Below are positions 17,285 through 46,816 of a stretch of 64,000 bases of DNA, piece by piece (position 1 is the first letter of the stretch; each line of letters opens with the position of its first letter). The DNA lies in assembly GCF_024723255.1 (NCBI RefSeq), contig NZ_JANIAC010000004.1, positions 248,001 to 312,000 of the forward strand. The letters run 5' to 3'. The notes under the pieces are model-generated. The model saw only the letters and a program-made list of their open reading frames with translations, was not told the origin of the DNA and made no database searches. This DNA is from Aestuariibaculum sp. M13. GTDB taxonomy: Bacteria > Bacteroidota > Bacteroidia > Flavobacteriales > Flavobacteriaceae. Position numbers and translations under genes: made by a program.

Positions 17285-17290
17285 TTGAAT

Positions 17291-19213: not shown

Positions 19214-19302
19214 AGCGGAAAACCCCAGTAAAATGGTTTTTTAAAAGGAAGTCTTGGGGCTCATAACCCGAAGGTCACAGGTTCGAGTCCTGTTCCCGCT
19301 AC
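19214..19302 (+). other. Initiator-tRNA-like element, copy 1 (tRNA-fMet 3' half with aberrant 5' half)
   Basis: The 3' half (from 19255) is a good match to a bacterial initiator tRNA: GGGCTCATAACCC is the anticodon arm with CAT and the three G:C pairs diagnostic of tRNA-fMet, followed by variable loop AGGTC, T arm ACAGG-TTCGAGT-CCTGT and acceptor strand TCCCGCT. The 5' acceptor strand AGCGGAA would pair with one mismatch. The D arm is abnormal: it is replaced by a longer segment with a hairpin AAAACC/GGTTTT around CAGTAAAA, so the element is 89 rather than 77 bases. It is therefore a pseudo-tRNA or tRNA-derived element, not a working tRNA. A strong terminator follows at 19326. A second copy lies at 46724. 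Confidence 0.7.
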
Positions 19303-19325
19303 TAAGATTAAATTCTTTCAAAATC

Positions 19326-19358
19326 AACGGTTTAGTTTTTGCTAAACCGTTTTTTTTT
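19326..19358 (+). terminator. Rho-independent terminator after tRNA-like element 1
   Basis: AACGGTTTAG (19326-19335) pairs perfectly with CTAAACCGTT (19342-19351), loop of six, then a run of seven more T. Its position, 24 bases after the tRNA-like element, suggests that the element is transcribed. The rest of the gap 19083-19443 holds the ATACG repeats and the element; nothing else was recognised. Confidence 0.9.
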
Positions 19359-19443
19359 ATGCCTAATATCTTGAAAGGTGAATACGAAAATGTATAAGAT
19401 TTGTCCTGTCAGAAGAAATTTTCTAACCCAAAAATAGTTACGG

Positions 19444-20025
19444 CTAAAGGCGATTTTCTAGGTTGAGTTTAAATAATAAGAATAAAATACTTTCCATTTT
19501 ATCACCAACTTTCTGTCTTATAATTTCAAAAGCCTTATACATTTGGTTTTCTACGGTTCTTACAGATATATTTTGATGCTCTGCAATTTCGTTATAGGTA
19601 AGCCCTTCTAGTTTAGCCATAGTGAAAATGGTTTTGCATTTTGGAGGGAGGTTTGAAATCTCTTTTTTAACAACTTCAATTAACTTGTTAATTTCGTTAT
19701 AATCTGTGTCTTCAATAATATTGTCAAGATGTTTTATGTGCTTCTCTTCAAGAGGAGACATAATTTTATTTTTTCGGTACTGGTCTATAAATTCGTTATA
19801 AACGGCTTTGTATAGGTAATTTTTAATTGAAATTTCGGGAGATAATTTTTTTCTTTTATGCCAGACTTTTAAAAATACATTCTGAACAATGTCTTCAGCT
19901 TTAAATTTATCTTTAGTTAATCCTTGAGCATAAATACATAATTTGGTGTAATATTCATCCATGATGTAAGCATAAGTGCTTTCATTTCCTTTTATTAAGT
20001 TTTCTATAAGGATGTTGCTATTCAC
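19444..20025 (-). CDS. ECF RNA polymerase sigma factor, FecI type
   Basis: An extracytoplasmic-function sigma factor of about 193 aa. Region 2: YYTKLCIYAQGLTKDKFKAE and then DIVQNVFLKVWHKRK. Region 4: LPPKCKTIFTMAKLEGLTYN, with helix-turn-helix EIAEHQNISVRTVENQM. The frame is open to a TTG at 20112 (222 aa), but those first 29 codons contain no acidic residue and have no counterpart in the sister sigma factors. GTG at 20025 (VNSNILIENLIKGNES) matches where the others begin and restores a divergent promoter gap of about 120 bases to fecR. It ends in a long hydrophobic tail (MESILFLLFKLNLENRL), shared with the sigma factor at 30357. Confidence 0.88.
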   Translation of the reverse strand: MNSNILIENLIKGNESTYAYIMDEYYTKLCIYAQGLTKDKFKAEDIVQNVFLKVWHKRKKLSPEISIKNYLYKAVYNEFIDQYRKNKIMSPLEEKHIKHLDNIIEDTDYNEINKLIEVVKKEISNLPPKCKTIFTMAKLEGLTYNEIAEHQNISVRTVENQMYKAFEIIRQKVGDKMESILFLLFKLNLENRL

Positions 20026-20148
20026 CTGAATATACGATGGATTAAGTGTTAAATTAGTTGAAAGTTTGTGTAAACTTATAATTTTTTTTCGAAAAGTTGT
20101 GGGTGATATCAAATCTCATCCGTATTAATAATATAACCTTTTAATAAA

Positions 20149-21312
20149 ATGACAGAAAGAGATAAACAAGCATGTATTAATTTTCTTGTAAATGAGGCGC
20201 AAGGTAATGATTTGGAGCATTTAGAAGATTGGCTTAGGGATTCTAAAAATAACCATCTATTCCAAAGTTATGTGAAAGCAAATTATATAATGGATTCAAG
20301 TTTGAATTCTTTTGATTCGGAAAAGGCTAAACAAAATTATATAAAAGTAATACGTGAGGAAAAACGTAAAGCGAAACGTATTAAGATTTATAGATGGACT
20401 GGTTATGTTGCAGCTATTTTAGTTGTGGCTTTGTTGATAGGGAATATTGTTTTTAACGGTTTGTTCGATAATTCAAAAGACCAAATAGTTCCGGTAATTG
20501 TAAACAATAATATTAAATCAGGTGAGAATAAAGCTATCCTAACTTTAGAAGATGGTTCAGAGGTTGTATTTGTGAAGGGAGCATCATTAAAAACAGCTAA
20601 TGCTACTAGTGATGGAGAAGAGATTGTTTACAATGATGATGTAAATAAAAAGGAGTTGGTGTTTAATACTTTAACCATTCCTCGGGGAGGAGAGTTTTTG
20701 GTTATACTTTCTGATGGAACAAAGGTGTGGTTAAACTCAGAAACTCAATTAAAATACCCTGTAGATTTTATAGAAGGTCAAACACGTCAAGTAGAACTAG
20801 TCTACGGTGAAGCGTATTTCGAGGTTTCTCCAAGTATTAAAAATGGAGGTTCAGATTTTAAGGTAGTTAATGCTAGTCAGGAGATACAGGTATTGGGGAC
20901 AAAGTTTAATGTTAGATCTTATCAAAATGAATTAAATGTTCTTACAACTTTGGTAGAAGGTAAAGTGTCTGTTCAGTCGTCAAATGAAACCAAAATTCTT
21001 AAGCCAAATCAACAATCCGTAGTAAATATTGAAAATCAAAATATTGAAATTAAAGAAGCTGATGTACGAGCTGAAACCGCATGGTTAAAAGGAGAATTTA
21101 TTTTTAAGCATAAAGCCTTAAAACAAATTATGCGAGAATTATCGCGATGGTATGATATGGATGTCATCTTTGAGAATAAAGATCTTGAAGAAATGAAATT
21201 TGTTGGAATCTTAAGTAAAGATTTAAGTGTAGAGGAAATTTTAAATACTATTCTTAATTCAGGAGTTATAAATAGTTATGAAATTAATAATAAGCAAGTA
21301 AAAATAAAATAG
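20149..21312 (+). CDS. FecR-family anti-sigma factor
   Basis: A 387-aa inner-membrane anti-sigma regulator. The cytoplasmic N-terminus (HLEDWLRDSKNNHLFQSYV) would hold the divergent sigma factor. The membrane helix lies at about 82-103 (YVAAILVVALLIGNIVF). The periplasmic FecR domain contains LTIPRGGEFLVILSDGTKVW, GEAYFEVSP and QVLGTKFNVRSY, and a DUF4974 end (HKALKQIMRELSRWYDMDV) follows. It is closely related to the two other FecRs in the window. The next gene is an STN-type susC, the expected signalling partner. Confidence 0.93.
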   Translation: MTERDKQACINFLVNEAQGNDLEHLEDWLRDSKNNHLFQSYVKANYIMDSSLNSFDSEKAKQNYIKVIREEKRKAKRIKIYRWTGYVAAILVVALLIGNIVFNGLFDNSKDQIVPVIVNNNIKSGENKAILTLEDGSEVVFVKGASLKTANATSDGEEIVYNDDVNKKELVFNTLTIPRGGEFLVILSDGTKVWLNSETQLKYPVDFIEGQTRQVELVYGEAYFEVSPSIKNGGSDFKVVNASQEIQVLGTKFNVRSYQNELNVLTTLVEGKVSVQSSNETKILKPNQQSVVNIENQNIEIKEADVRAETAWLKGEFIFKHKALKQIMRELSRWYDMDVIFENKDLEEMKFVGILSKDLSVEEILNTILNSGVINSYEINNKQVKIK

Positions 21313-21321
21313 TATAAAAAG

Positions 21322-21408
21322 AAAAGGGAACGAAATTCAAGCATTTGGTCGTGTCGTTGATTTCGCCCCTCTAACATGTAATAATTAAACAAAATGTCTA
21401 ACTAACAC
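21322..21408 (+). promoter_or_regulatory. Conserved structured leader before STN-type susC (copy 2)
   Basis: Stem AAGGG-aa-CGAAAT (21324-21336) with ATTTCG-CCCCT (21360-21370); the stem bases differ from copy 1 (CGAAG/CTTCG there) yet still pair. The loop keeps GCATTTGGtCGTGT. TGTCTAACTAACAC lies at 21395-21408, 12 bases before the ATG. It could be an RNA structure or the target promoter of the cognate sigma factor (GGGAAC, then CGTGTC). Confidence 0.55.
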
Positions 21409-21419
21409 AAAACAAATTT

Positions 21420-24400
21420 ATGGAATTAAAAACAATTAATGTCCGTTCGCTTTTGCGAAAACGGTTATTAAAGAGGATTATGAGAACATTTATCTTTTTA
21501 CTTTGTACAACTGTTTTCAGTTTTAATACTAGCAATAGTTTAGCGCAGGAACGTGTTAAAATACAAGCAGATAAGACGGTAACAATTGATGAGGTTTTCG
21601 AAATGATAATGAATCAAACCAAGTATCGTTTTCTTTATTATGACAAACTATTTGAAAAGGAACCTAAAATTCAATTAAAAGAAGGTGATATTACTGTAGA
21701 TCGTCTATTGCAAAAAAGCCTGTCTTCAGGTAACTACAGTGTAGTTTTAAGTGAAAATAATGTGATTCTCATTAAGAAAAAGGAAGATGATCAAAACATA
21801 AAAATCACAGGGAAAGTTATCGATGAGTCAGGTTTGCCTGTGCCTGGAGTTACAGTTTTGATTAAAGGAACATTTAAAGGCACTGCCACAGATTTTGATG
21901 GCTCTTATAGCATTGTTGTTCCGAATTCAGAGAATATATTAGTTTTCTCTGCCTTAGGTTTTGAAACAAAAGAAATTAAAGTAGGAAAGGAAAAAACAAT
22001 CAACATAACCTTAAAGGAATCTATCAAGGAATTAGAAGAGGTTTTAATCTCGACTGGATATCAAAATATTTCAAAAGAACGTGCTACTGGATCGTTTTCT
22101 GTTATAGAGTCTGAAGATTTACAAAGAATACCTGGATCTAATGCCATTATGAAACTCGAGGGGCAAGTAGCAGGGTTACAAATAGACCTTTTAGAATCTG
22201 ATAATACATTTGTTTATGGTAATTTATTACCAGAAACAGAAGGTAATACAAGTTATAATTTTAGAATTCGTGGGCAATCTACCTACCAAGCTGAAGATAT
22301 GCCTTTGGTGGTTTTAGATGGTGCTCCAACAGAATTGGATATTAGAACAATTAACCCTAACGATATAGAAAAAATTACATTTCTAAAAGATGCAGCAGCA
22401 GCTTCTATTTATGGAGCGAGAGCAGCAAATGGGGTAATTGTTATCGATACAAAAAAAGGTGAAACGGGAAAAACAAATATTAGCTATTCTCAAAGTTATA
22501 CGTTTTCTTCAAGACCTTCATTATCAGGTTTGCCGTTAATGAATTCGTCTCAAATATTAGATTTAGAGCAAGAATTGGTAGATAACTATTTTATTTTTGA
22601 TCCAACGGGTTCAAGTAGTATTTATAATGCTTCGCCTATTAGTAAAGGCGTTGATATTATGTTTCAAGCACAACGAGGAGAAATTACTGCAGAAGAAAAG
22701 GAGACTGCATTGGATGTTTTAAGAAATAGATATACTTATGGGCAGGTTGAAGATTATTTATTACAAGCATCAGAGGCTACTACACACGACCTGTCTCTAA
22801 GCGGTGGCCAAGGTGATTATAATTATTTTACGTCTGTTGCATTTTCAAAAGAAAAAACACAATCTAAAGGTACAGAAGGAAAACGCTTTACTTTAACGGC
22901 TAATCAAAACTTTAAACTGTTTAAATATGCGAAGGTAAGTACAAGTTTAAGAGGCTCGTTTTTCGACTATAAACAAAATGGTTTAGGTTTAAATCCTTTA
23001 GCTTCAAGTCTAACTACATTATTGCCATACGATCAAATAGTTGACGATAATGGTAATTCAGTAGATTACTATAACGCCTTTTATAAGGATTTTTCTCAAA
23101 ATTTAGAGGCACAGGGATATTTGCCCTGGACCTATAATTATATTGATGAACTAGAAAATAGTGATCGTCCGGTTAAGGAAGAAAATTATTCGGCCAATAT
23201 TTCTGTAACCTTACCATTATTGAAGGGCCTTAATGCTGTTGGAACTTACTTTACAGAACGTTCTTATTTAGATAATTCAAACTATTATAATGAAAATACC
23301 ATCTATAATAGAAACTTGATTAATTCGGCTACTACTATTGATGCAAACACAGGGGAATTAGTTGTAGGTATTCCACAAGGTGGCATTTTTCAAAGAAATA
23401 AATATATTAGGAATAGTTATACTGGTCGAGGTCAGTTAAATTACAATACCACAATACAGGGTAATCATGCTATTGATGCCATAGCTGGTATTGAGTTCAG
23501 ACAAACAAGGGAGCAAACCGAAGGAGGAAAGTTGTTTGGATATAATGAACAAACACAAACGTCTATAGATCTACCTTCTTCAACGTACATATCGATTTAT
23601 GGGTGGGACACTTCAATTTCATATGGTAATGAAAAAAAGGATTTTAGACGTCGATTTTTATCTTATTATGGAAATGCTGCATATTCTTATAAAAACAAGT
23701 ATACGGTTTCAGGAAGTGTTCGTTTAGACGATTACAACAACTTTGGACTTGATAAAAAGTACCGAAGAACACCTTTATGGTCTACAGGTGCTAAATGGGA
23801 TATTTATAAAGAAAGATTTTTAGAGAATGCAGATTTTGTAAATAGTTTGAGTTTTAGAATGTCTTATGGGTATAATGGAAATATTAGTTTAACAACATAC
23901 CCGTTTACAAATATTTCATTAGCTGATAGCGATTATAATTTATCTAACTTACCTTATGCTTCTATTTCTGCAGCAGCTAATCCTGCGTTACGTTGGGAGA
24001 AAACAGGTATTTTAAATTTTGGATTAGACTTTTCATTATTTAACAGTCGATTAAATGGTACTGTGGAATACTATAAAAAGAAAAGTGAAGATTTAATTCA
24101 GGACTTTCCAGTTTCAGAATTCTATGGATTACCAAATAATTCTTTAACAAGAAATACAGCAACTTTAGAAAGTAATGGTATCGATTTAAACCTAAATGGA
24201 ACCATTTTAAGAACAAAAGATTTTAGCTTAAATTCTGGTTTTGTGCTATCCTACAATAAAAATGAAGTAACAGATTCTAGATATGAAAGCTATGCTAATT
24301 ACCTAAATGGAACAGGAAGTACACCTCCAATTAAAGGGTACAGTTTAAATAGTATGTTTGCCTTTAGGTCGGCAGGGTTAGACGAATTTGGGGCAACCTT

Positions 24401-24989
24401 AGTTTATGATAAGGACGGGAATACTGTAGATGCCAATACCGTTTTAACCGATATTGAAGACATGAAGTATATGGGGAGTAGAACACCTAACTATTATGGA
24501 AGCTTCAATACCACCATTAATTATAAAAAGTGGTCGTTATATGCATTAGCGACGTATAAGTTTGATTACGTCTTGTTCAAGCCTGGCTTCAATAGTGTGG
24601 TATCTAGATGGGGTACTTTTAATGGCTATGATTTAAGTGCTGAATTGGCAAACCGTTGGAGACAAGCCGGAGATGAATTAACCACAACTGTTCCAGGACT
24701 TCAAGGAACTGGGGGATATAGTTTTGGACGTTATATGTTTGGAAGCGATAGAGTTATTGATGGCGATCATATAAGATTGAGAGAGGTAGCTTTAAGTTAC
24801 GATTTGTCTGATGTTTTATCCAAGACCTTTATAAAAGGTGCTAGTTTATCGTTTACAGCAAGAAACTTAGGACTTATTTGGAGTAAGAATAAGGATGGTA
24901 TAGATCCAGATTTCTTACCATATACAACAGGTCAGATTAAATTACCACCAACAGCCATGTATTCATTAGGGCTTAATGTAAACTTTTAA
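21420..24989 (+). CDS. SusC/RagA-type TonB-dependent transporter with STN signalling domain
   Basis: An outer-membrane transporter of 1189 aa. N-terminal extension NVRSLLRKRLL, signal peptide MRTFIFLLCTTVFSF, cleavage near SLAQ. STN domain at about 46-118 (VTIDEVFEMIMNQTKYRF), carboxypeptidase-regulatory-like domain at about 127-200 (GKVIDESGLPVPGVTVLIKG), plug at about 205-345 (ITFLKDAAAASIYGARAANG), and a beta barrel ending YSLGLNVNF. The plug contains an unusually long segment between LEGQVAGLQID and FRIRGQSTYQ. It is a paralogue of the transporter at 7524, sharing the leader and N-terminal sequence. It is followed after 9 bases by its SusD, then by a thioredoxin-like protein and a hydrolase. 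Confidence 0.95.
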   Translation: MELKTINVRSLLRKRLLKRIMRTFIFLLCTTVFSFNTSNSLAQERVKIQADKTVTIDEVFEMIMNQTKYRFLYYDKLFEKEPKIQLKEGDITVDRLLQKSLSSGNYSVVLSENNVILIKKKEDDQNIKITGKVIDESGLPVPGVTVLIKGTFKGTATDFDGSYSIVVPNSENILVFSALGFETKEIKVGKEKTINITLKESIKELEEVLISTGYQNISKERATGSFSVIESEDLQRIPGSNAIMKLEGQVAGLQIDLLESDNTFVYGNLLPETEGNTSYNFRIRGQSTYQAEDMPLVVLDGAPTELDIRTINPNDIEKITFLKDAAAASIYGARAANGVIVIDTKKGETGKTNISYSQSYTFSSRPSLSGLPLMNSSQILDLEQELVDNYFIFDPTGSSSIYNASPISKGVDIMFQAQRGEITAEEKETALDVLRNRYTYGQVEDYLLQASEATTHDLSLSGGQGDYNYFTSVAFSKEKTQSKGTEGKRFTLTANQNFKLFKYAKVSTSLRGSFFDYKQNGLGLNPLASSLTTLLPYDQIVDDNGNSVDYYNAFYKDFSQNLEAQGYLPWTYNYIDELENSDRPVKEENYSANISVTLPLLKGLNAVGTYFTERSYLDNSNYYNENTIYNRNLINSATTIDANTGELVVGIPQGGIFQRNKYIRNSYTGRGQLNYNTTIQGNHAIDAIAGIEFRQTREQTEGGKLFGYNEQTQTSIDLPSSTYISIYGWDTSISYGNEKKDFRRRFLSYYGNAAYSYKNKYTVSGSVRLDDYNNFGLDKKYRRTPLWSTGAKWDIYKERFLENADFVNSLSFRMSYGYNGNISLTTYPFTNISLADSDYNLSNLPYASISAAANPALRWEKTGILNFGLDFSLFNSRLNGTVEYYKKKSEDLIQDFPVSEFYGLPNNSLTRNTATLESNGIDLNLNGTILRTKDFSLNSGFVLSYNKNEVTDSRYESYANYLNGTGSTPPIKGYSLNSMFAFRSAGLDEFGATLVYDKDGNTVDANTVLTDIEDMKYMGSRTPNYYGSFNTTINYKKWSLYALATYKFDYVLFKPGFNSVVSRWGTFNGYDLSAELANRWRQAGDELTTTVPGLQGTGGYSFGRYMFGSDRVIDGDHIRLREVALSYDLSDVLSKTFIKGASLSFTARNLGLIWSKNKDGIDPDFLPYTTGQIKLPPTAMYSLGLNVNF

Positions 24990-24998
24990 TTTTTGGAG

Positions 24999-26414
24999 AT
25001 GAAAAAATATTTAATTTATATATATACAATAGCAGTAGGTTTAGGTTTAACCAGTTGCGACGATTATGTTGATATTAAAACTGAAGGCAAATTAGTGCCG
25101 GAAGAGACCATCAACTATAGGTACCTATTAAACAATACCTACAGTTTCGATAGATCGAATGCATTAATAGATTTGATGTCTGATGATATAGCGATAAGAG
25201 ATGGACACGCCCAGTATTTCGAAAATTACTACGGAACAAGTTCATACTATCGTCCATATAAAGAAGTATATAAATGGGCAGATTCTATTTATTACGCAGG
25301 AGAATCAGATTATACCTTAAATACAATGTATTCAGCATTATATCTGTCAAATGTTGTTATTTCTGAAGTTATGAATAGTAATGGAGGAACTGAATTAGAA
25401 AAAGCAGCTTTAAAAGGAGAGGCTTTAGTACATCGTGCATTTGTTTTTTTAGAGTTAGTAAATCTATATGGAAAAGCTTATGACGTTAGTAGTTCAGCAA
25501 CAGATCCAGGTATCCCAATGTTTACGGAACCAACTGTTGAAGAAGAAATAATAAGAACTCCTGTTGAAGATGTATACAATCAAATTGTTTCAGATTTAGA
25601 AGAAGCTATTGCTTCAGGAATGGTAGATAAGCAAACCGGAAGAAACATAGCGTTTCCTTCTTTATCATCAGCCTTCGCTTTATTGGCAAGAACATATTTG
25701 TATATGGGCAATTACACTGAAGCATTAAAAAATGCAGAAGCAGCATTAGACATTAATAGTTCATTAATCAATTTAGAAGATTATGAAAATGCTTATGATT
25801 ATTCTTTTTTTAAACGATACGAAGATCCTGAGTTAATGCTGTCTAAGCAAAGCAGCACATCATATATTTACTCACCTACGCTATTGTCTTTAAGTGATGA
25901 GGTGTTAAATTTATTTGATTCCGGAGATTTAAGATATACGATGTTTACACGTCCAATAGGCGATATGACCTGGGGGGCATTTTCAGGAGGTAGAGCGTTT
26001 TGTAGAGAAATATTAACAGGAGAAGCCAGAAATGCAGGGCCTACGGTACCAGAAATGATGTTAATTAAAGCAGAGTGTCTGGCAAGAGCAAATGATACAG
26101 AATCGGCAATGCAAACTATAAATACATTACGAATGAAGCGATTTAAGGCTGCTGATTATGTTGATTTAACGGCTACCGATTCAGAAGATGCTTTATTGAA
26201 AGTTTTAGAAGAGCGCAGACGCGAACTTATGGGTAAAGGCGGATTCCGTTGGTTTGACTTAAAGCGCCTTAACAAAGATGTGCGTTTTGCCAAAACCATT
26301 ACACATAAGTATTTAGATCAGACTTTTACTCTAGAGCCAGAAGGTAATCGTTATCAGTTTCCATTTGCATCTACATTATTTAATTATGCTCCAAATTTAG
26401 AGCAAAACCCTTAA
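24999..26414 (+). CDS. SusD/RagB-family outer-membrane lipoprotein
   Basis: A 471-aa lipoprotein paired with the preceding SusC. The frame opens at a TTG (24993), but the ATG at 24999 gives a clean lipoprotein signal (MKKYLIYIYTIAVGLGLTSC) with the Cys at residue 20. TPR-like helices (ALLARTYLYMGNYTEALKNA) and the motif VLEERRRELMGKGGFRWFDL mark the family. A terminator-like hairpin lies 15 bases after the stop, so the two following genes may be expressed at a lower level. Confidence 0.93.
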   Translation: MKKYLIYIYTIAVGLGLTSCDDYVDIKTEGKLVPEETINYRYLLNNTYSFDRSNALIDLMSDDIAIRDGHAQYFENYYGTSSYYRPYKEVYKWADSIYYAGESDYTLNTMYSALYLSNVVISEVMNSNGGTELEKAALKGEALVHRAFVFLELVNLYGKAYDVSSSATDPGIPMFTEPTVEEEIIRTPVEDVYNQIVSDLEEAIASGMVDKQTGRNIAFPSLSSAFALLARTYLYMGNYTEALKNAEAALDINSSLINLEDYENAYDYSFFKRYEDPELMLSKQSSTSYIYSPTLLSLSDEVLNLFDSGDLRYTMFTRPIGDMTWGAFSGGRAFCREILTGEARNAGPTVPEMMLIKAECLARANDTESAMQTINTLRMKRFKAADYVDLTATDSEDALLKVLEERRRELMGKGGFRWFDLKRLNKDVRFAKTITHKYLDQTFTLEPEGNRYQFPFASTLFNYAPNLEQNP

Positions 26415-26429
26415 TCATTTTATCAATAG

Positions 26430-26456
26430 GCACCCGTTTTAGTCGGCGGGTGCTTT
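26430..26456 (+). terminator. Terminator-like hairpin between susD and the thioredoxin-like gene
   Basis: GCACCCG (26430-26436) pairs with CGGGTGC (26447-26453) around a 10-base loop, followed by TTT and then A-rich sequence. The short T-run suggests partial termination or attenuation rather than a full stop. Confidence 0.6.
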
Positions 26457-26469
26457 AAAATTCAAATTC

Positions 26470-28440: not shown

Positions 28441-28443
28441 AAT

Positions 28444-29832
28444 ATGCATTTTCATAAGTCATTACTGGTTTTAATATTTGGTTGTTTTTTTATTTCAGGT
28501 TATTCTCAAAATATTTGGCAAGCGCAACATAACTCTAAACGTTATGTTGTTAAGGTAAATAATAATGTTGTTGTAAATGACACAATATATCTATCTGTTT
28601 TGGAGCAGGGTTATGAAAATATTCCTTTGGTAATAAAACAAGATGGAGATAGTCTTTCTGCAGATAATGATTCTTACGGATTTAAGCTAAAAATGCTAGT
28701 ATTGAATAATTTTGGTAAAAGCACACTTCAGCCTTATAATACGACACCTTTCAGTTTAAATTTTAAAAAGGTAGATTCAGTTCAGCCACTATACTTTCCA
28801 CAACATCCTAAAAAGCCATATCCATATGTTGTTGAAGATGTTAAGTTTAACGGAAACTCAACGGGCTTAACCTATGGGGCAACGTTAACATTACCCAAAG
28901 GAAAGAAAAAATATCCGTTAGCGGTTTTGATTTCTGGTACTGGCCAACACGATCGAGATTATTCATATTCAGGACATCATTTTTTTACCGTTTTGGCAGA
29001 TTATTTGGCGAGAAAGGGGATTGCTTCTTTTAGAGTTGACGATAGAGGAATTGGTGAAACAACTGGTGATTTTAGTTTAGCAACTACTCTCGATTTTGCT
29101 AACGATGTAAGCGAGGCCATAAATTATTTGAGGAAACGAAATGATATCGATAACTCATTATTAGGACTTATTGGGCACAGTGAAGGTGGTATGGTTGCTT
29201 CTATTGAAACGTCAAGAAACAAAGAAGTGAAATATGTGATTAGCTTATCTGGTGTTGCGGTTAATGGTTTGAAAATGTTGGAGTTGCAGAATGCTGAAAT
29301 TTTAAAAGGACTCCATAAGTCCGATGGGTTGTTGAATAAGCATATGGAACTGTTTAATGAGATGTTTCAAACCGTTTACGATTCAAAAAAAGATGATAGT
29401 TTAGAATTGAAACTAGAGCATACTGTTGGTAATTGGAAACAAAAACAAGAAAAAGGCACTATTGAAGCTCTTAACTTACATGATGGTCGAGATATGAACT
29501 TAATTTACCGTTATGCAAGAACAGCTAAAACCAATTGGTACAGATATATGATCCATTATAACCCAGAAGAATTTTTATCTAAAATAGAAGTCCCTGTTTT
29601 AGCATTAAACGGTGAAATGGATATCATGGTGTTGGCAAAAGAGAATTTAAATGGATTTAAAAAATATTTGCCTAAATCAACCGATTTAACAACTAAAATA
29701 TATCCATCACTAAACCATATGTATCAGCATTGTGTATCATGTACAAATGAAGAAATACCGGAATTAGATGAGGTGTTTTCTCAAGTGGTTCTTAATGATA
29801 TCGCAAAATGGATTAAGCAACACAATAAATAG
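28444..29832 (+). CDS. Exported alpha/beta hydrolase (S9/esterase-like)
   Basis: A 462-aa protein with a signal peptide (LLVLIFGCFFISGYSQ). The first 120 residues form a beta-rich domain. The alpha/beta hydrolase fold begins near residue 140: LAVLISGTGQHDRDYSY (oxyanion region), FRVDDRGIGETTGDFS, and the nucleophile elbow GHSEGG with Ser246. ALNGEMDIMV gives the likely acid region, and YPSLNHMYQHC the catalytic His near the C-terminus. It could be a peptidase or an esterase; the sequence alone does not decide. The gene follows the thioredoxin-like gene by 3 bases and ends the operon before a strong terminator. Confidence 0.87.
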   Translation: MHFHKSLLVLIFGCFFISGYSQNIWQAQHNSKRYVVKVNNNVVVNDTIYLSVLEQGYENIPLVIKQDGDSLSADNDSYGFKLKMLVLNNFGKSTLQPYNTTPFSLNFKKVDSVQPLYFPQHPKKPYPYVVEDVKFNGNSTGLTYGATLTLPKGKKKYPLAVLISGTGQHDRDYSYSGHHFFTVLADYLARKGIASFRVDDRGIGETTGDFSLATTLDFANDVSEAINYLRKRNDIDNSLLGLIGHSEGGMVASIETSRNKEVKYVISLSGVAVNGLKMLELQNAEILKGLHKSDGLLNKHMELFNEMFQTVYDSKKDDSLELKLEHTVGNWKQKQEKGTIEALNLHDGRDMNLIYRYARTAKTNWYRYMIHYNPEEFLSKIEVPVLALNGEMDIMVLAKENLNGFKKYLPKSTDLTTKIYPSLNHMYQHCVSCTNEEIPELDEVFSQVVLNDIAKWIKQHNK

Positions 29833-30959: not shown

Positions 30960-31068
30960 ATCAAATTCGTAATTAGTTAGTTGGTTGTTTGTGCAATTTA
31001 TAAAAAAATACTAAAAAAATTAGGGTTATGTAATTGAGCATCGTAATTAAATAAAAAGGTAGTAAAAA

Positions 31069-32244: not shown

Positions 32245-32250
32245 AATAAG

Positions 32251-32334: not shown

Positions 32335-32346
32335 TTAAGCTAAATT

Positions 32347-35715: not shown

Positions 35716-35731
35716 TAATTAATGAAATTAA

Positions 35732-37252: not shown

Positions 37253-37273
37253 TAATAATTGAAATCAATAAAA

Positions 37274-37309
37274 CTCTTTCTTGAATAGTGTTTTCTATTC
37301 AAGAAAGAG
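37274..37309 (+). terminator. Perfect 15-bp inverted repeat after susD
   Basis: CTCTTTCTTGAATAG (37274-37288) pairs perfectly with CTATTCAAGAAAGAG (37295-37309) around TGTTTT. The sequence after it is only moderately T-rich (ATTAATATTCCCTTTA), so it may attenuate or stabilise the susCD transcript rather than end it fully. Confidence 0.65.
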
Positions 37310-37396
37310 ATTAATATTCCCTTTATTAAAACATAAGGGTAGTCTTATTGTGTAATAAGCTGAAGTATTCTTCATGCTTAATAAATTAAACTAAAG

Positions 37397-39721: not shown

Positions 39722-41960
39722 TTATAAGATATATATAGCCTTTGTATGCTTTTTAACACTTTCTGTTCATGGTCAAATGACTTCAGCAGATTTTTTAAAA
39801 GCAGATGGCACCGTTTTACGAAACAATAATGGTCTGGGTGATACCATAACACTTAGAGGGACAAATTTAGGGGCTTGGTTAAGCATGGAATATTGGATGG
39901 GACCCGTAGGTAAAGGCTCATTAAACAGAAGCACGTGGCAAGCAAGCGCTTCATCCTCCTATCCAGGTACAGATTTACAGAATGTTTTTGATAGAGATTT
40001 AAATTCGAGGTGGTCAAGTGGTTTGGCACAAATACCTGATGGCTCTCAATATTTTATGGTTGACATGCAGGAAAACGTTTTGTTTAATCGTGTGTCTTTT
40101 GAGGCGGGATCTCACACAGGTGATTATCCTCGTGGTTATAAAATTGAAGTTTCAGAAGATGCAAACAATTGGGAGGAAGTCATGTCTGGAACTGGTTCAA
40201 CAGAAAACATCTTTGTTCAGCTACCAAATATTTATTTTAAGCGATACATAAAAATAACACAAACAGGAACGGCTAATTCTAATTTTTGGTCCATAGCAGA
40301 ATTTAATCTGTATATGGAAGATGATTTTACAGTTAGAAATTCGTTAATCGATAGGTTTGGAGAAGATGGAGCAGATGTGGTTTTAGACAGTTTTCAAAAG
40401 GCTTGGATAACTACAAATGATTTAGATAATATTAAGGCCATGGGAATGAATATGGTGAGAGTGCCCTTCTACTGGATGGAAATAATGTATAATGATGGTA
40501 CTATAAAACCACAAGGTTTTGATCAATTAGATTGGGTAATAGCAGAGTGTAATAGTCGTAACATGTATGTAATTTTAGATTTGCACGGAGCGCCTGGTGG
40601 TATGAACGGTTTTATAACTAGTGGTCAGGCCTTTTTTAATGAGCTATGGACGAACAGTACATATCAACAAATGACCATTGATATCTGGAAAGCATTAGCA
40701 CACCGCTATAAAGACAATCCAACAGTAGCAGCATATGATTTGTTAAACGAACCTTTAAGTTCAGACCAGACCAATTACCCTATTCATGGGTTTTATAATA
40801 CCCTTTATAAGGAAGTTAGAAGTATTGATCCGGACCATATAATATCTATAGGGGCTTTTCCCGGGTTCAATTTTGTAGTACCTCCAGCACATTATGGTTG
40901 GACAAATGTGCTTTATCAAGTACATCACTATAATGAAGATAAGACCAACTGGGCATCTCAAAATGGTTTTATAGATGCTATTTTATTAGATGTTGCAAAT
41001 CATATGTATAATTGGAATGTGCCCGTGCTTGCTGGTGAATTCAATTTTTGGGATTTCCCGGATTTATGGGAACGCTATCTTTCAGGTTTGAATAAGTTAA
41101 ATGTATCTTGGTCTAATTGGGCTTACAAGGTAAAACGAATAGATAATCCAGTTGAGAATTGGGGTTATTATGATGGATTTGATGGTCCTATTCCTGATAT
41201 TCATTATGATTCTCCGGAAGTGATTTCTGAAAAGTGGAGTCAGTATATAACACCTAATTTTAGAATAAATCAAGGCCATATAGACAATGTAAAGCAGTTT
41301 ACCACAACTCAGGTTACTTTACCGCCTTTCGGGGAAACTATATGGATTAAAGGTAATAATTTAAAATATTTAACTATTCTCGATGATAATGAGACGTTAA
41401 GTTGTGACAAAATTAAGGTAGATAACCAAGTTAAGTTTGAGGTTGTTTATGCAGGGAATGGAGAAATAGCACTTTTAGGAGCAAATAATATGTATGTGTC
41501 GGCAGGAAACGGAGTAAATAATATGCTTTGCAATGCTTTAAACATAGGAGACACTGAAACATTTAAGTTTATACAAATAGAAGATGGTAGGATAGCTTTA
41601 CGTAGTAAACAAGGTTATTATGTGAGTTCTGAAGATGGACAGAAACCAGTTATAGCTAATAGACAAAGTGTTGACGGTTGGGAGGTCTTTTCTTGGGGAA
41701 CCAATTTTTCTAATGGAAAACCTAAAAATGTTACCGCAAAAATATATCCAAACCCTGCTAAAGGCGAAGTTATTATTAAGAGCGATTTAAAAAACTATAA
41801 CCTTAAAGTCTTTAATATGTTTAGTCAGTTAGTGAAAGAAACTAATGGGGTTGAGGGGGAAATGAATTTTAGTACCTCCGATTTAAGGCCAGGACTTTAT
41901 GTTTTTTTTATAAATGATGAGAAAACTGATCCATTAGTAAGAAAAATTATTATTCATTAA
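39714..41960 (+). CDS. GH5-like glycoside hydrolase with inserted discoidin-type domain and T9SS sorting signal
   Basis: A 748-aa secreted enzyme. No ATG precedes its signal peptide: the frame opens at 39711 after a TGA, and TTG at 39714 is the only good start, overlapping the GH3 gene by 8 bases. Order: signal peptide (1-20); start of the barrel (LRGTNLGAWLSMEYWM); an F5/8-type (discoidin/CBM32-like) domain at about 70-202; the remaining barrel with DLHGAPGGMNG, acid/base Glu346 (DLLNEP) and nucleophile Glu442 (LAGEFNFW); a fascin-like beta-trefoil at about 545-665; and a T9SS sorting domain (YPNPAKGEVIIKS to the end). This resembles exo-beta-1,3-glucanase-type GH5 enzymes. Substrate unproven. 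Confidence 0.88.
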   Translation: MSNYKIYIAFVCFLTLSVHGQMTSADFLKADGTVLRNNNGLGDTITLRGTNLGAWLSMEYWMGPVGKGSLNRSTWQASASSSYPGTDLQNVFDRDLNSRWSSGLAQIPDGSQYFMVDMQENVLFNRVSFEAGSHTGDYPRGYKIEVSEDANNWEEVMSGTGSTENIFVQLPNIYFKRYIKITQTGTANSNFWSIAEFNLYMEDDFTVRNSLIDRFGEDGADVVLDSFQKAWITTNDLDNIKAMGMNMVRVPFYWMEIMYNDGTIKPQGFDQLDWVIAECNSRNMYVILDLHGAPGGMNGFITSGQAFFNELWTNSTYQQMTIDIWKALAHRYKDNPTVAAYDLLNEPLSSDQTNYPIHGFYNTLYKEVRSIDPDHIISIGAFPGFNFVVPPAHYGWTNVLYQVHHYNEDKTNWASQNGFIDAILLDVANHMYNWNVPVLAGEFNFWDFPDLWERYLSGLNKLNVSWSNWAYKVKRIDNPVENWGYYDGFDGPIPDIHYDSPEVISEKWSQYITPNFRINQGHIDNVKQFTTTQVTLPPFGETIWIKGNNLKYLTILDDNETLSCDKIKVDNQVKFEVVYAGNGEIALLGANNMYVSAGNGVNNMLCNALNIGDTETFKFIQIEDGRIALRSKQGYYVSSEDGQKPVIANRQSVDGWEVFSWGTNFSNGKPKNVTAKIYPNPAKGEVIIKSDLKNYNLKVFNMFSQLVKETNGVEGEMNFSTSDLRPGLYVFFINDEKTDPLVRKIIIH

Positions 41961-41962
41961 AT

Positions 41963-44900
41963 ATGATTGGTATGAGAGTTATAATATGTTGTTTTTTAGC
42001 TTTTTTAGTTTCAACTGGTTGTAAGTATAATAAAACAAGAGTTGATGATTTGATGGTAGAATACCTTGAAACTCCAATAGGAATTGATGAATTTAAACCT
42101 AGGTTTAGTTGGAAAATGGTTTCAGGTGATGATAAAAATAACTTGTTTCAAAAGGCATATCAGATTATTGTAAAAGATGTTAATGAACTGCAGGTTTGGG
42201 ATTCAGGTAAGGTAGAATCTGATATTTCGTTGAATATAGAATTTGAGGGGGAATCATTGAGATCAGAATCAAAATACACATGGGATTTGAAAGTTTGGAA
42301 TCAAAATGATGAAGTTTTAACAAATAAATCATGGTTTGAAACGGGACTGATGAATTCGGATATAATGGCTTGGGAAGGGGCGACATGGATTGGTGGCTCT
42401 CAAGAGGATATGGTATTGTACTCTCATGCGCTTTCTGTGTTTAAATTGAGTTATGATGTTAAGTTAGATGAAGAAAGCCAATCATCAAAGGCTGGATTTG
42501 TATTTGGAGCAAACGACCGCAGACTGATGGATAAAAATTCTAACATTATGGGAGTTGAAAATGGAAAAGACCAAAGCTATTTTGTTTTTGAATTAAATGT
42601 AGACCATATTAAAAACATCAATGGTAATGCAACACTTGATGTATACAGGGTAGGCTATACTTCAGGTGATTCAGAAAGTGAGCCTTTGTACTCTTACATT
42701 ATACCCAGAAGTTTAATAAATACAGAAAATAAATATGATTGGCATCAGGTGTATTTCGAGATGAACTTTGGAAAGTGCTTAATTTATATAGATGGGAAAG
42801 AAAATAAAAATATTATTAATGAACCAATGGATGTGCCTAACTGGGTAGACGTAAGAGGAGTATCTTTAAATCCACTTGGAGATAATGGAGGAGACTTAAT
42901 AGTTTATCCTTTATTAGCGGATATAGGATTTAAAATGGATCAAGGACAAAAGGCTTCATTTAAAAATTTAAAAGTAAAAAATTTCAGACAACCATCAAAT
43001 ACTGTTTTTCAGGAAAATTTAAAGGGAAGTGTTGAGTATAAGGGTGTTTTTCAGGAATTTATAAATAATGGGGTTGAGGTGCTTAATGGACAATATAAAG
43101 TTGGAGCTTCTAATGAAACTGTTTTCATTACAGCAAATCCAAGTAAAAATTCCATGCCGATGTTACGTACTGAGTTTAGTGTGGATAATAGCATTCAATC
43201 TGCAAAGCTTTATGTTACGGCAAGAGGTATTTACGAGTTGTATTTAAATGGAAAAAGAATTAGTAATGATTATTTTAATCCAGGCCTTACACAGTATAAC
43301 AAAACTCATATGTATCAAACTTATGATGTGACTGAATTGCTTAACAATGGTAAAAACGCATTTGGGGCACTACTAGGAGAAGGATGGTGGAGTGGAAATG
43401 CAACATACCGAGGGTATAATTGGAACTACTTCGGGGATCGTCAATCTTTATTAGTTAAATTGAAGTTGACATTCCAGGATGGATCAACAAAAATCGTAAC
43501 AACAAATCCAGATGAATGGAAATATTTTAATGATGGACCCATAGAGTATTCGAGCTTTTTTCAAGGTGAGTATTACAATGCTATGAAAGAAAAGAATATT
43601 GAAGGGTGGAATCAAGTTGGTTATGACGATGAGCTTTGGAAAACTGCTGTAGAAGTTAATCTGAATAGTAAAAATGCTTATATCGATAAAGAGTTGAATT
43701 ATGACGATTTAAAAATTATAGGACAAATAGGTGAAAATGCTACAATAGTTAAAACCCTAACAGCTCAAAGTATGGAAGAAGTAAGGCCCGGTGTTTTTGT
43801 TTATGATATGGGGCAAAATATGGTTGGTTTTCCAGAGATAAACTTAAGTGGTGAAGCAGGAGATACTATAACATTAAGATATGCCGAAATGAAATATCCG
43901 AACCTTGACGAGTATAAAGGTAATGTAGGCATGATTATGATGGAAAATATAAGAGGAGCATTAGCAACCGATAAATGGATTTTAAAGGGAACTACAAGTG
44001 AGTTGATAAGGCCACGTTTTACTTTTCATGGTTATAGGTATATTGAAATAACTGGCATTGAAAAGCCAGTACCTATTGAGAGTGTAAAAGGAAAAGTAAT
44101 TAGTTCTATTAATGAATTAGCATCATCTTATAACACTTCAAATAAATTGGTAAACAAGCTTTGGCAGAATATAACATGGTCTTTTAGGGGTAACTTTTTG
44201 TCAATACCTACTGATACTCCGGCAAGAAATGAAAGAATGGGATGGAATGGGGATATAAATGTTTTTGCCAAAACGGCGACCTATTTAGGTCATGTTGACC
44301 TGTTTTTAAAAAGACATCTAATTGCTAATAGAGATCTTCAGGAATCCTCAGGCCGGTTTCCAGATATTGCACCAGTAGGAACGGGTTTTGGAGGTACGTT
44401 GTGGGGAAGCGCAGGGGTTACAATTCCGTGGGAACTTTATCAGCAATATGGTGATAAAAGGATTATAGAGAACCATTATGAAGCGATGAAGAGATATGTA
44501 GACTTTTTGGAATCTAAAGAAGATAAAGAAACAGGTGTTTTAGACGAAGGACCTTTAGGAGACTGGTTGAGTCCGGAAGGTTTTAAAAATGATAATTCTT
44601 TATTTTGGACAGCTTATCAAGTTAGAAGTTTAGAAATTTTATATAAATCTGCTGAATTATTGGGTAAACATAAAGACCGGGAAAAATATAAATCCTATTA
44701 TGAAAATCGAAAAGTGTTTTTTAATGAGACTTACGTAGATGCTATAACTGGTAAGACCATTCACTCAGGTTACAGTGGTGCTTCGTTGGCTACAAAACCC
44801 AAGGATTTTTTACAACCAGAAAAGGGGAATTTAGTAGATACACAAGCCTCGTATGCAATACCTCTGTCTTTTAATGTATTTGATGAAAAGTATAAGCTTT

Positions 44901-45565
44901 TAGCAAGACAATATCTCGTTCAGGCAGTAAGCAGACAAAATGCAGATTTTAATAATATTTTACGCCCGGTGAATTCCTTAATGACAGGTTTTGTTGGCAC
45001 AGTATCGCTTGGGATTGCGCTGTCAGAGGGGTATAATGATGAAGCTATTTATAACCTGTTGCAGCAAACTTCCTATCCTTCATGGTTGTATTCAGTAACA
45101 AATGGAGCTACTACTATTTGGGAAAGATTAAATTCTTATACAAAAGAAGAGGGGTTTGGAGGAAACAATAGTATGAACTCATTTAATCATTATTCTTTCG
45201 GAGCTGTGGGAGCTTGGATGTATGGTTATTCTTTAGGAATAAGACCTTTAAAAACTGGTTACAAAGAATTTATTTTAAGTCCAACTCCAGACCCTACTGG
45301 TAATATGGATTGGGCAGAGGGGTATTATAATTCTACCTATGGAACGATAAAAAGTAAATGGGTTGTCGAAGGTGATAAAACGACATACTACCTTACTATT
45401 CCACCTAATACAACAGCTAAAGTCCGGATTAAATACAAGCAAAATCAAAATATAGAAGTTTTCATAGAAGATAAACTTAAAATTATCCAACAGTATAATA
45501 AAATAGAAGGAAATAGAAAGGAATATAGTTTAGGTTCGGGCGAGTATACAATAGAGGTTAAATAA
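41963..45565 (+). CDS. GH78 alpha-L-rhamnosidase, lipoprotein
   Basis: A 1200-aa family-78 alpha-L-rhamnosidase that should release terminal L-rhamnose. A lipoprotein signal (VIICCFLAFLVSTGC, Cys20) anchors it in a membrane. Beta domains include LRTEFSVDNSIQSAKLYVTA, and the (alpha/alpha)6 barrel holds DTPARNERMGWNGD with acid Glu757, and TTIWERLN with base Glu1054. A segment at about 145-345 (KLSYDVKLDEESQSSKAGFV) interrupts the N-terminal region and looks like a concanavalin/LamG-type sandwich, making the protein longer than most family members. Start is ATG 41963 or 41972. It lies 2 bases behind the GH5-like gene and 6 before the regulator. Confidence 0.93.
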   Translation: MIGMRVIICCFLAFLVSTGCKYNKTRVDDLMVEYLETPIGIDEFKPRFSWKMVSGDDKNNLFQKAYQIIVKDVNELQVWDSGKVESDISLNIEFEGESLRSESKYTWDLKVWNQNDEVLTNKSWFETGLMNSDIMAWEGATWIGGSQEDMVLYSHALSVFKLSYDVKLDEESQSSKAGFVFGANDRRLMDKNSNIMGVENGKDQSYFVFELNVDHIKNINGNATLDVYRVGYTSGDSESEPLYSYIIPRSLINTENKYDWHQVYFEMNFGKCLIYIDGKENKNIINEPMDVPNWVDVRGVSLNPLGDNGGDLIVYPLLADIGFKMDQGQKASFKNLKVKNFRQPSNTVFQENLKGSVEYKGVFQEFINNGVEVLNGQYKVGASNETVFITANPSKNSMPMLRTEFSVDNSIQSAKLYVTARGIYELYLNGKRISNDYFNPGLTQYNKTHMYQTYDVTELLNNGKNAFGALLGEGWWSGNATYRGYNWNYFGDRQSLLVKLKLTFQDGSTKIVTTNPDEWKYFNDGPIEYSSFFQGEYYNAMKEKNIEGWNQVGYDDELWKTAVEVNLNSKNAYIDKELNYDDLKIIGQIGENATIVKTLTAQSMEEVRPGVFVYDMGQNMVGFPEINLSGEAGDTITLRYAEMKYPNLDEYKGNVGMIMMENIRGALATDKWILKGTTSELIRPRFTFHGYRYIEITGIEKPVPIESVKGKVISSINELASSYNTSNKLVNKLWQNITWSFRGNFLSIPTDTPARNERMGWNGDINVFAKTATYLGHVDLFLKRHLIANRDLQESSGRFPDIAPVGTGFGGTLWGSAGVTIPWELYQQYGDKRIIENHYEAMKRYVDFLESKEDKETGVLDEGPLGDWLSPEGFKNDNSLFWTAYQVRSLEILYKSAELLGKHKDREKYKSYYENRKVFFNETYVDAITGKTIHSGYSGASLATKPKDFLQPEKGNLVDTQASYAIPLSFNVFDEKYKLLARQYLVQAVSRQNADFNNILRPVNSLMTGFVGTVSLGIALSEGYNDEAIYNLLQQTSYPSWLYSVTNGATTIWERLNSYTKEEGFGGNNSMNSFNHYSFGAVGAWMYGYSLGIRPLKTGYKEFILSPTPDPTGNMDWAEGYYNSTYGTIKSKWVVEGDKTTYYLTIPPNTTAKVRIKYKQNQNIEVFIEDKLKIIQQYNKIEGNRKEYSLGSGEYTIEVK

Positions 45566-45571
45566 CTAAAA

Positions 45572-46618
45572 ATGAATAAATTTATGAATTTAAGTTTTGA
45601 AAATAATTCAGTGTTGCCATTGTATATGCAAATAGCTAATGCGGTTGTTAATAATATACAAAAGGGGAATTTAAATATTCATGAAAAAATGCCTTCCATA
45701 AATACCTTTAGTAAAAAATATTCGGTTTCCAGAGATACCGTTGAAAAAGCTTATAAAGTTTTAAAACAAAGAAAGATTTTGGTTGCTAAAAAGGGAAAGG
45801 GGACTTTTGTAAACAGTTCTAGGATTATCGTCAAAACAAAAGTACTTTTTCTTATTAATAAGCCTAGTCAATATAAGTTGGAAGTTTATAATGCCTTTAC
45901 AAAAGATTTAGGTGAAGATTACCTTGTTAATTTTGAAGTTTACCATTGCGATGAGGTTTTGTTTTTTAATTTATTAGAACAAAATTTACATACGTACGAT
46001 TACTTTGTAATCATGCCTCATTTTAATACAAGTAGCGACGAAAGACAGAATTTCTCCGAAACAGTATTAAAATTAATAAAGAGTATTTCTTCCGATAGGT
46101 TAATTATATTAGATAACAATGATTTAAAGTTAGGAAATCAATGTATAGAAATTTTTCAAGATTTTGAAAGAGATACTTTCGAAGGTTTAAATAATGCGTA
46201 TTTTAAAATTAAAAAATATCAAGAGTTAATTTTAGTAACCCCTAAGAGGTTTAATTATTCGTACATTGATAAAATCACAAATGCATGTAAAAAATTTTGT
46301 AATTATCATGAATTTGGATTCAAAGTTTTAAATGAAGTTTCTCATAATACAATTGTAGGAAAAGAAAATTTATTCATAGTTTTAGAAGATGATGATTTAG
46401 TAAAATTATTAGATAAGTTAAACCAATTAAAATTAGAGTTAGGGAGAGATGTTGGTGTAATCGCATTTAATGAAACTCCATTTAAGAGATTGTTAGGGAT
46501 TTCTGTTATGTCTACAAATTTCAAGTTAATGGGAGAAACAGCTGCATCTATGATGCTCAATAGACAAAAATCTAAGGTTAAAAATAAATTTTGCTTTATT
46601 GATAGGATATCCTGTTGA
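45572..46618 (+). CDS. GntR-family transcriptional regulator with LacI-like ligand-binding domain
   Basis: A 348-aa regulator. N-terminal winged helix (about 12-85): LPLYMQIANAVVNNIQKGNL, MPSINTFSKKYSVSRDTVEK, GKGTFV. The C-terminal 250 residues resemble a periplasmic-binding-protein (LacI/GalR-type) sensor (VLFLINKPSQYKLEVYNAF, DVGVIAFNETPFKRLLGISV). Its position as the last gene of the GH3-GH5-GH78 operon suggests that it senses a sugar from this pathway and controls these genes; this locus would then have both sigma/anti-sigma and sugar-responsive control. Start is ATG 45572 or 45584. Confidence 0.9.
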   Translation: MNKFMNLSFENNSVLPLYMQIANAVVNNIQKGNLNIHEKMPSINTFSKKYSVSRDTVEKAYKVLKQRKILVAKKGKGTFVNSSRIIVKTKVLFLINKPSQYKLEVYNAFTKDLGEDYLVNFEVYHCDEVLFFNLLEQNLHTYDYFVIMPHFNTSSDERQNFSETVLKLIKSISSDRLIILDNNDLKLGNQCIEIFQDFERDTFEGLNNAYFKIKKYQELILVTPKRFNYSYIDKITNACKKFCNYHEFGFKVLNEVSHNTIVGKENLFIVLEDDDLVKLLDKLNQLKLELGRDVGVIAFNETPFKRLLGISVMSTNFKLMGETAASMMLNRQKSKVKNKFCFIDRISC

Positions 46619-46680
46619 AAATATAAAAGAATTATATTAGTTTTAGTGAGAAATTAAATGTCTAATCCAGACATCAAACT

Positions 46681-46710
46681 GAATACGATTTTAATACGGA
46701 GACGAATACG
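46681..46710 (+). repeat. ATACG direct repeats upstream of tRNA-like element (copy 2)
   Basis: Three units, GAATACGATTTT, AATACGGAGAC and GAATACG, spaced by 11-12 bases and followed by TTTTTGTAAAT. Copy 1 at 19178 shows the same unit and the same distance to its tRNA-like element. A plausible -33/-7 promoter (TTG at 46616, TAGTTTTA at 46639) lies upstream. Confidence 0.45.
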
Positions 46711-46723
46711 TTTTTGTAAATCG

Positions 46724-46816
46724 AGCGGCTGAAAGCCCCAGTAAAAAGGGTTTTGGGAGGTTGTGGCTTCAAGCTCATAACCCGAAGGTCACAGGTTCGA
46801 GTCCTGTTCCCGCTAC
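46724..46816 (+). other. Initiator-tRNA-like element, copy 2
   Basis: The 3' half (GCTCATAACCCGAAGGTCAC, continuing through the T arm to CCCGCTAC) is identical to copy 1 and matches the 3' half of tRNA-fMet. The 5' half begins AGCGG and has a hairpin AAAGCCC/GGGTTTT around CAGTAAAAA, which preserves pairing relative to copy 1 (AAAACC/GGTTTT) with changed bases. The segment before the anticodon loop differs from a tRNA (TTCAAG instead of TCGGG) and can instead form GGTTGTG/CATAACC, so a normal anticodon arm is lost. It is 93 bases long and followed by a terminator. Together with copy 1 it could mark the ends of a 27.5-kb island, or be a tRNA-derived RNA gene. Confidence 0.68.

Follow-up and report, generated by a model that had tools for sequence, protein, structure and literature searches.

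The window analysed here is a stretch of 64,000 nucleotides from the genome of Aestuariibaculum sp. M13 (4.16 Mb in nine contigs; contig C6:248001-312000). It contains two copies of the 3′ half of an initiator tRNA-Met that are identical letter for letter over 43 nt (19260-19302 and 46774-46816). These fragments are very probably the attachment (att) sites of an integrative element of the tyrosine-recombinase type, E3, which would be the third in a head-to-tail stack of four elements that follows the gene for initiator tRNA-Met. A first-pass annotation, made from the letters of the window, had taken the fragments for the ends of a genomic island bounded by tRNA 3′ ends, and this reading is supported with regard to both the kind of island and its limits.

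Cores and tandem segments

ARAGORN finds no complete tRNA within the 64-kb window, so both copies are fragments. Compared with its own genome, copy 2 matches the true tRNA-Met(CAT) at C6:194190-194263, an intact initiator tRNA 73 kb upstream of the window's first fragment. It also matches fragments on the same strand of C6 at 231768, 267215, 294720 and 329573, of which 267215 is copy 1 and 294720 the self-match. The tRNA 3′ half recurs in the same orientation and thereby divides the region, core to core, into four head-to-tail segments of 37.6 (E1), 35.4 (E2), 27.5 (E3) and 34.8 kb (E4), the third being that of the window. The 27.5-kb island of the annotation is thus a bounded unit, although it is one of four tandem units and not a single one. 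Its ends carry the 3′ part of the tRNA in direct orientation, as is characteristic of tRNA-targeted tyrosine-recombinase elements.

A second tRNA-Met gene (C3:750034-750108) heads a second array, formed by E5 and E6, to which a related copy at C3:715772-715863 belongs. Self-match aside, the strong matches of copy 2 in its own genome have E values from 6e-43 to 5e-18, and all six strong copies lie at or behind the two tRNA-Met genes; the scatter over unrelated places that would speak against an island is not seen. Where the annotation let the shared tRNA-like sequence begin at AGCGG, the identity over 43 nt stands, but the part from AGCGG through to the anticodon is not tRNA. It is the right-end sequence of the upstream element and varies among other elements. 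Four further matches in the genome (E 0.002-0.06), considered as extra scattered copies, are merely 20-30 nt long and were rejected as members. Two weak tRNA-like matches, C5:447786-447815 (E 0.002) and C7:367531-367550 (E 0.06), lie ~1 kb or less from other tyrosine recombinases and possibly represent other element types at other tRNA genes.

A reading of the fragments as functional tRNA-like RNAs, or as tRNA pseudogenes that have nothing to do with mobility, is hardly credible. One junction does fold somewhat like a tRNA, and ARAGORN calls it as a tRNA-Met (C6:231788-231864). In the window, however, there is neither a complete tRNA nor any Rfam match at gathering thresholds, grounds on which a functional tRNA-like RNA was rejected. 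Moreover, the 5′ parts vary between copies and go with the element, and the breakpoint between strains falls on a fragment, as described below.

Table 1 Features of E3 and its borders in the window
Feature	Position	Strand	Basis or remark
Right-end arm-like repeats of E2: GCATACG x2, 12-bp period	19179..19197	+	Majority class as in E2's own integrase gene (C6:231948)
Left attachment core of E3: initiator tRNA-Met 3′ half, anticodon region to acceptor end	19260..19302	+	Matches tRNA-Met C6:194190-194263; identical to 46774-46816
Terminator-like hairpin AACGGTTTAGT-TTTT-GCTAAACCGTT and T-run, ending exactly at integrase ATG	19326..19358	+	Same arrangement in 43/43 left ends
Relic of E3 integrase gene: start codon, intact repeat GAATACG (19380-19386), decayed repeat (19392-19398), then truncated	19359..19456	+	~98 bp
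Cargo polysaccharide-utilization locus (PUL) 1: extracytoplasmic-function (ECF) sigma (-), FecR, SusC-like, SusD-like, thioredoxin-fold protein, alpha/beta hydrolase	19444..29832	.	Pfam; SusC/SusD by homology cluster
Cargo PUL 2: sigma-like (-), FecR-like, SusC-like, SusD-like, GH3, GH5 with type IX secretion system (T9SS) tail, GH78 alpha-L-rhamnosidase, GntR/periplasmic-binding regulator	30357..46618	.	Pfam (GntR, enzymes); clusters (SusC, SusD)
Right-end arm-like repeats of E3: GAATACG, TAATACG, GAATACG, 11- and 12-bp spacing	46681..46710	+	Class of surviving left-relic repeat
Right attachment core of E3, also left core of E4: initiator tRNA-Met 3′ half	46774..46816	+	Own-genome matches; G060 breakpoint C6:294774 = window 46774
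Hairpin at E4 start, same as in chromosomal flank beyond E4 (C6:329620); no tyrosine recombinase gene after it	46823..46850	+	

Comparison with related genomes

A genome labelled as the same species and consisting of a single contig (G060) lacks 100.5 kb that include the island. It is collinear with C6:168001-194319 at ~98%, through the tRNA and ~50 nt beyond, the alignment extending past the tRNA because the left end of the element that G060 carries there is similar. Alignment resumes at C6:294774 and extends to 342816 as blocks of 96-98%, with one difference of ~1 kb within E4. The right breakpoint, C6:294774, is the first base of the second fragment. Between the two alignments, G060 has a different element of 33.7 kb (E7) that replaces the 100.5 kb of E1-E2-E3. 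Presence and absence with a breakpoint at the core are therefore seen in one conspecific genome, with another element in place of the missing ones, and the right breakpoint, exactly at the core, supports the first proposal that the fragments mark island ends. The annotation had further suggested looking for an empty site in relatives: G060 is a relative that lacks the island, whereas a direct junction of 19.2 with 46.8 kb was not seen. Gain in one strain and loss in the other both fit the difference.

A 20-kb part of E3 (window 26400-46390), the cargo tested, has no ortholog in G060, G001, G002 or G003. In the four congeneric genomes the best-scoring match of the tested cargo is 69% over ~1 kb, with short pieces reaching at most 89% over ~70 nt. 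The congeners have more sequence between the tRNA and the right flank, and in the stretches of the relatives no orthologous right-flank gene lies near the tRNA, the exceptions in this search being a match 13 kb beyond a core in G003 and paralog-like similarity of 25-31% only.

The replacement from repeat to repeat in G060 is also obtainable by RecA-type exchange, and direct repeats of 43 nt could recombine. The islands might accordingly have been stacked by homologous recombination between the tRNA 3′-half repeats, through exchange or deletion, with the integrases as passengers; E3 and E4 have no integrase gene and that of E1 is frame-broken. We consider this improbable, because integrases with in-frame repeats stand at the core in several genera, named below, with a left-end signature in 42 of the 236 genera sampled, and because the class of repeat agrees at both ends of the elements. 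In addition, 43 nt is, as a matter of general knowledge, short for efficient homologous recombination.

The left end and the integrase gene

Tyrosine recombinase genes with weak PF00589 matches (30-44 bits) lie behind the cores at C6:194317-195648 (E1), C6:231918-233222, C3:748649-750025 and C3:714360-715721. The reading frame is intact in E2, E5 and E6 and broken in E1. An integrase gene thus stands next to the core in these four elements, whereas E3 has only a relic and E4 none. The left ends compared number 43 (28 elements and 15 of the 17 genome loci described below, without L070 and L071). All 43 have a hairpin whose stem is 10-12 bp long and, behind it, a T-run that reaches right up to the integrase ATG, which in E3 opens only the relic. 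In an alignment of the integrases (A2), position 375 is tyrosine in 19 of 19 sequences (Y375, in YSFRHT), which we take to be the first residue of the presumed HxxR box of tyrosine recombinases.

The left end of E3 aligns by blastn with an intact left end and integrase gene at 80% over 219 columns, core and hairpin included, and the alignment ends at 19456. Judged by this remnant, E3 is a stranded element: its integrase is gone, together with one or more of the left repeats, and it would be immobile alone. It is tempting to speculate that E3 could be moved in trans by the intact integrase of E5, which is of the same repeat class and is encoded on contig C3. The modules of E1 and E5 that comprise the integrase and its partner gene (see below) share 89% DNA identity, yet they are found behind different tRNA-Met genes.

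E4 has neither a tyrosine recombinase gene nor left repeats. The terminator-like hairpin at its start (C6:294820-294850) is the same as one in the chromosomal flank past its right end (C6:329620-329650), and G060 shares the integrase-less state of E4.

Repeats within the integrase frame and at the far end

Most intact integrase genes contain, within about the first 25 codons, two to four 12-bp repeats that start GNAYACG and fall into the classes GAATACG, GCATACG, GAACACG and GTATACG. Repeats are also found at the far end of the elements, where they stop 62-65 bp before the anticodon. Left ends were matched to the right end that came next on their own contig and strand; this gave 19 new pairs besides nine further elements that include E3, unpaired ends being outside the count. 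In 28 of 28 elements the two ends agree in their majority repeat class. In a looser count, requiring the far-end class to be among the left repeats, 28 agree, whereas 20,000 shuffles gave 12.2 on average and 22 at most. A rule that stacked neighbours differ in repeat class was rejected, as it is followed at five of seven junctions (E1-E2, E2-E3, E3-E4, E5-E6 and one in G271, contig C4) and not at the other two (E7-E4 in G060 and one in G002, contig C22).

Codon choice for tyrosine and histidine is close to uniform in the N-terminal repeat region, with TAC or CAC in 52 of 55 cases; the remainder of these genes has them in 143 of 520 (Fisher p 2e-23; 19 integrases, comprising three from this genome and 16 of the 17 loci). 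In a second, overlapping set of 26 elements, such codons end in C in 80 of 85 cases versus 205 of 772 (p 8e-36). Both p-values are inflated by relatedness, though the contrast is drawn within genes. This near-fixed choice indicates that the DNA, besides the peptide, is conserved. The in-frame and far-end repeats are thus most likely candidate arm-type sites of the integrase on both sides of attP, the attachment site of the free element.

It is very improbable that the in-frame repeats reflect nothing but a conserved integrase peptide and that those at the far end are unrelated regulatory motifs. The region is open in frame in the aligned integrases, and extra repeats are added as four-codon units, as a peptide would allow. 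A peptide does not, however, account for codons nearly fixed on TAC/CAC, nor for residues (E/A/V and Y/H) that shift along with the DNA class while the far end has the same class. Furthermore, a scan made without a core requirement places 45 of 49 repeat clusters beside a core, though the stretches scanned had been chosen around such sites.

If the fragments are att cores, each element would bring along its own copy of the tRNA 3′ half. A crossover near the anticodon loop would restore the tRNA and displace the former 3′ half to the far end, which would keep the site usable and let elements pile up behind tRNA-Met. In intact sister elements an integrase gene directly follows the core, and repeats of one class stand at both ends. 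If these repeats are arm-type sites, the left set would lie inside the integrase frame, and its binding could also damp integrase expression.

Several observations weigh against this interpretation. In no relative genome compared is the tRNA joined directly to the right flank. The repeat class tracks the lineage of the integrase, requiring as few as 4 changes on a tree of 26 of the 28 integrases (the broken E1 and the relic of E3 were left out), and the 28 include the near-copy pairs G281a and G031, E2 and E8, E1 and E5, and G002a and E6. Because class is lineage-bound and some elements are near-copies, the 28 matches amount to far fewer independent events. A degraded segment in G003 (contig C108), which has a truncated integrase and is outside the 28, combines GAATACG on the left with GAACACG on the right. 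Four of the 49 repeat clusters were not scored beside a core on their own strand, although two of these are E11 repeats of the palindromic class GTATACG, read on the opposite strand. Lastly, E4 has no integrase and no left repeats, so that it is counted as an element by its right end.

Occurrence in the family and the partner gene

The left-end signature is present in 48 and the right-end signature in 25 of 299 Flavobacteriaceae genomes, the window's genome being included in both counts, whereas reversed-pattern controls occur in 0 genomes. In these patterns the class positions are free, and their design drew on sequences from some of the genomes searched. A peptide-pattern scan of genome contigs found at least 17 relatives of the E2 integrase, from Aestuariibaculum, Mangrovimonas, Maribacter, Winogradskyella, Lutibacter, Lacinutrix, Flavobacterium and one uncultured member of the Flavobacteriaceae. 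In all 17 loci the integrase gene starts behind a tRNA-Met 3′ half.

Each of the four integrase genes of the window's genome is followed by an open reading frame (ORF) of 211-242 aa, which we call the partner. A profile detects it in 26 of 27 elements with an integrase, in 16 of 17 genome loci and in 0 of 16 viral loci. The 22 sequences behind the profile include six of the 26 elements and 15 of the 16 genome loci, so that only the other elements are independent, and one of the viral loci (L252) holds almost nothing downstream of the integrase. A single weak tblastn match in another viral locus (L250; E 0.31) was taken as chance. On this distribution the partner gene looks like a mark of the islands as against related phages. 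The protein is modelled as helical, with a mean predicted local distance difference test (pLDDT) score of 77. Its fold has no match in the PDB at E <= 0.001, its sequence matches nothing better than E 0.15 in the PDB or E 0.017 in PHROG, and no Pfam or NCBIfam family scores above cut-off. A role as directionality or transfer factor would be a guess. Several elements also contain an ORF of ~140 aa with a cysteine-rich, zinc-finger-like N terminus (L014:14773-15219, L072:8079-8507 and others), often just after the partner; the two examples tested against Pfam and the one tested against NCBIfam gave no match.

Related phages

Relatives of the integrase are found in 15 IMG/VR loci and in one Leeuwenhoekiella phage record (Arctus_1), with identities of 33-46% in the 12 closest of the 15 loci and 36% in the phage record. 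The tRNA-Met 3′ half is visible in 4 of these 16 viral loci; many of the others end close to where the integrase begins. By eye, several contain in-frame repeats, often with A for the last G. Flavobacterial temperate phages resemble the islands in having related integrases, in some cases the tRNA-Met 3′ half and in several the in-frame repeats, but differ in that the profile detects the partner gene in none of the 16 loci. In two viral contigs, L247 and L248, repeats, the tRNA-Met 3′ half and the start of an integrase gene that itself bears repeats form one continuous stretch, and ARAGORN finds no complete tRNA in either. The junction is attP-like, with the arrangement that would be expected of a free attP. 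By eye, the hairpins of these two contigs do not abut the start as strictly.

Cargo and mobility genes

The cargo of E3 comprises two loci of polysaccharide-utilization type (Table 1). The annotation had listed two sets of sigma factor, FecR and SusC/SusD genes together with GH3, GH5 and GH78, and this content is borne out: the first sigma factor, the first FecR and the three glycoside hydrolases by Pfam, the second sigma factor, the second FecR and the SusC/SusD pairs by homology clustering, with members of the SusC and SusD clusters confirmed by Pfam. Among 15 clustered segments, all chosen for their position at tRNA-Met cores, the commonest clusters are the integrase (10), SusC-like and SusD-like proteins (9 each), the partner (8), and sigma factors, FecR and thioredoxin-fold proteins (7 each). 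GH2 enzymes, a sulfatase and a trypsin-like peptidase are among the cargo of E1, along with a thioredoxin-fold protein.

Other elements carry different genes. E11, from another genus (G032; L096:5182-12168), encodes a protein with an AAA_25/DnaB-like helicase domain followed by type I restriction HsdR and HsdM, so that elements of this type may also contain a replication module and genes for defence. In E5 (L019:11423-12553; L020 = C3:716423-746208), an integron-like recombinase precedes a long run of small, repeat-spaced ORFs on one strand, with repeated units of ~125-170 bp, a cargo that resembles a cassette array. The recombinase scores above the cut-off of NCBIfam NF040815 and below that of the integron integrase TIGR02249, and similar recombinases follow the partner region in L072, L075 and L076. 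Near the end of E2 stand two neighbouring genes for MutS domain III/V proteins of 441 and 443 aa (window 15959-18616), and a Barstar-like ORF below threshold lies downstream of the pair (18690-19082).

No PF03432 relaxase is matched in the whole genome, a family that matches in just 1 of 14 control genomes and was the relaxase family searched. Since no relaxase of this family was found, transfer between cells probably needs a helper. No conjugation-like gene cluster is common to the 15 segments, whose cargo is partly annotated, and a ribbon-helix-helix gene in 3 of the 15 has sub-threshold similarity to NikA/MobA/MbpA. Eight of the 14 ORFs of E3 were given to Pfam and none is a virion-type gene, the other six belonging to the sigma, FecR, SusC and SusD clusters.

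Relation to known systems and significance

The islands are known in kind, as tRNA-targeted islands of tyrosine recombinases, and are distinctive in their in-frame arm-like repeats and orphan partner gene. In tRNA-targeted prophages and islands such as KplE1, as in the elements described here, the integrase lies beside a tRNA, the core is the 3′ part of the tRNA, and the attL arm sites are next to the integrase start (PMC2951348). There, intS is negatively autoregulated and the arm sites overlap the integrase promoter (PMC2951348), a precedent for control of an integrase's expression through its arm sites; the candidate sites here are instead part of the coding sequence, and the terminator-like hairpin before them abuts the ATG. 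Tycheposons, as described second-hand, are likewise tRNA-anchored, with a tyrosine recombinase and nutrient-related cargo, and tRNA-Met is a named site; they belong to other bacterial groups, and that description mentions neither a partner gene nor in-frame repeats (PMC10872708). The intact sister elements have the anchor, recombinase and nutrient cargo of tycheposons, traits that are common to many islands and not diagnostic.

ICECleSHZ29-like integrative and conjugative elements of Flavobacteriaceae and Weeksellaceae also insert at tRNA-Met-CAT, but are 75 kb long, carry conjugation genes and repeat only the terminal 17 bp of the tRNA 3′ end (PMC12561888). The present elements, in contrast, have a 43-nt core from the anticodon region on, in a genome without a PF03432 relaxase. 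GInts, too, are islands with cargo that are recognised by their recombination module and by a far end of short length, although they need three integrases and a small protein (PMC5385486), whereas here each intact border has one integrase and an unrelated partner. No description of these elements was found in the open-access literature searched; nor are they described in passages from a survey that covers the islands of 70 marine genomes (PMC3478194) or from a review on mobilizable elements (PMC11389934).

Taken together, the observations allow a broader interpretation, which we put forward tentatively and hold to be possible rather than probable. The elements would form a family-wide Flavobacteriaceae lineage of non-conjugative integrative elements in which attP overlaps the integrase coding sequence, with in-frame arm sites behind a terminator hairpin whose occupancy controls both recombination and the integrase's own expression. 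The helical partner absent from phages would be a new directionality or transfer factor, and elements without an integrase would be moved in trans by integrases of the same class, thereby shuffling polysaccharide-utilization loci.

The in-frame repeats constitute an unusually clean overlap of DNA site and protein, for which the far end of each element serves as an internal control. Flavobacteriaceae vary in the polysaccharides that they can digest, and the vehicles of such gene sets have seldom been delimited. The elements provide a candidate for such a vehicle. Its ends are exactly defined, it has an integrase, and it can be searched for by a DNA signature, the left end being present in roughly a sixth of the family genomes sampled; with it the exchange of polysaccharide gene sets becomes directly testable.

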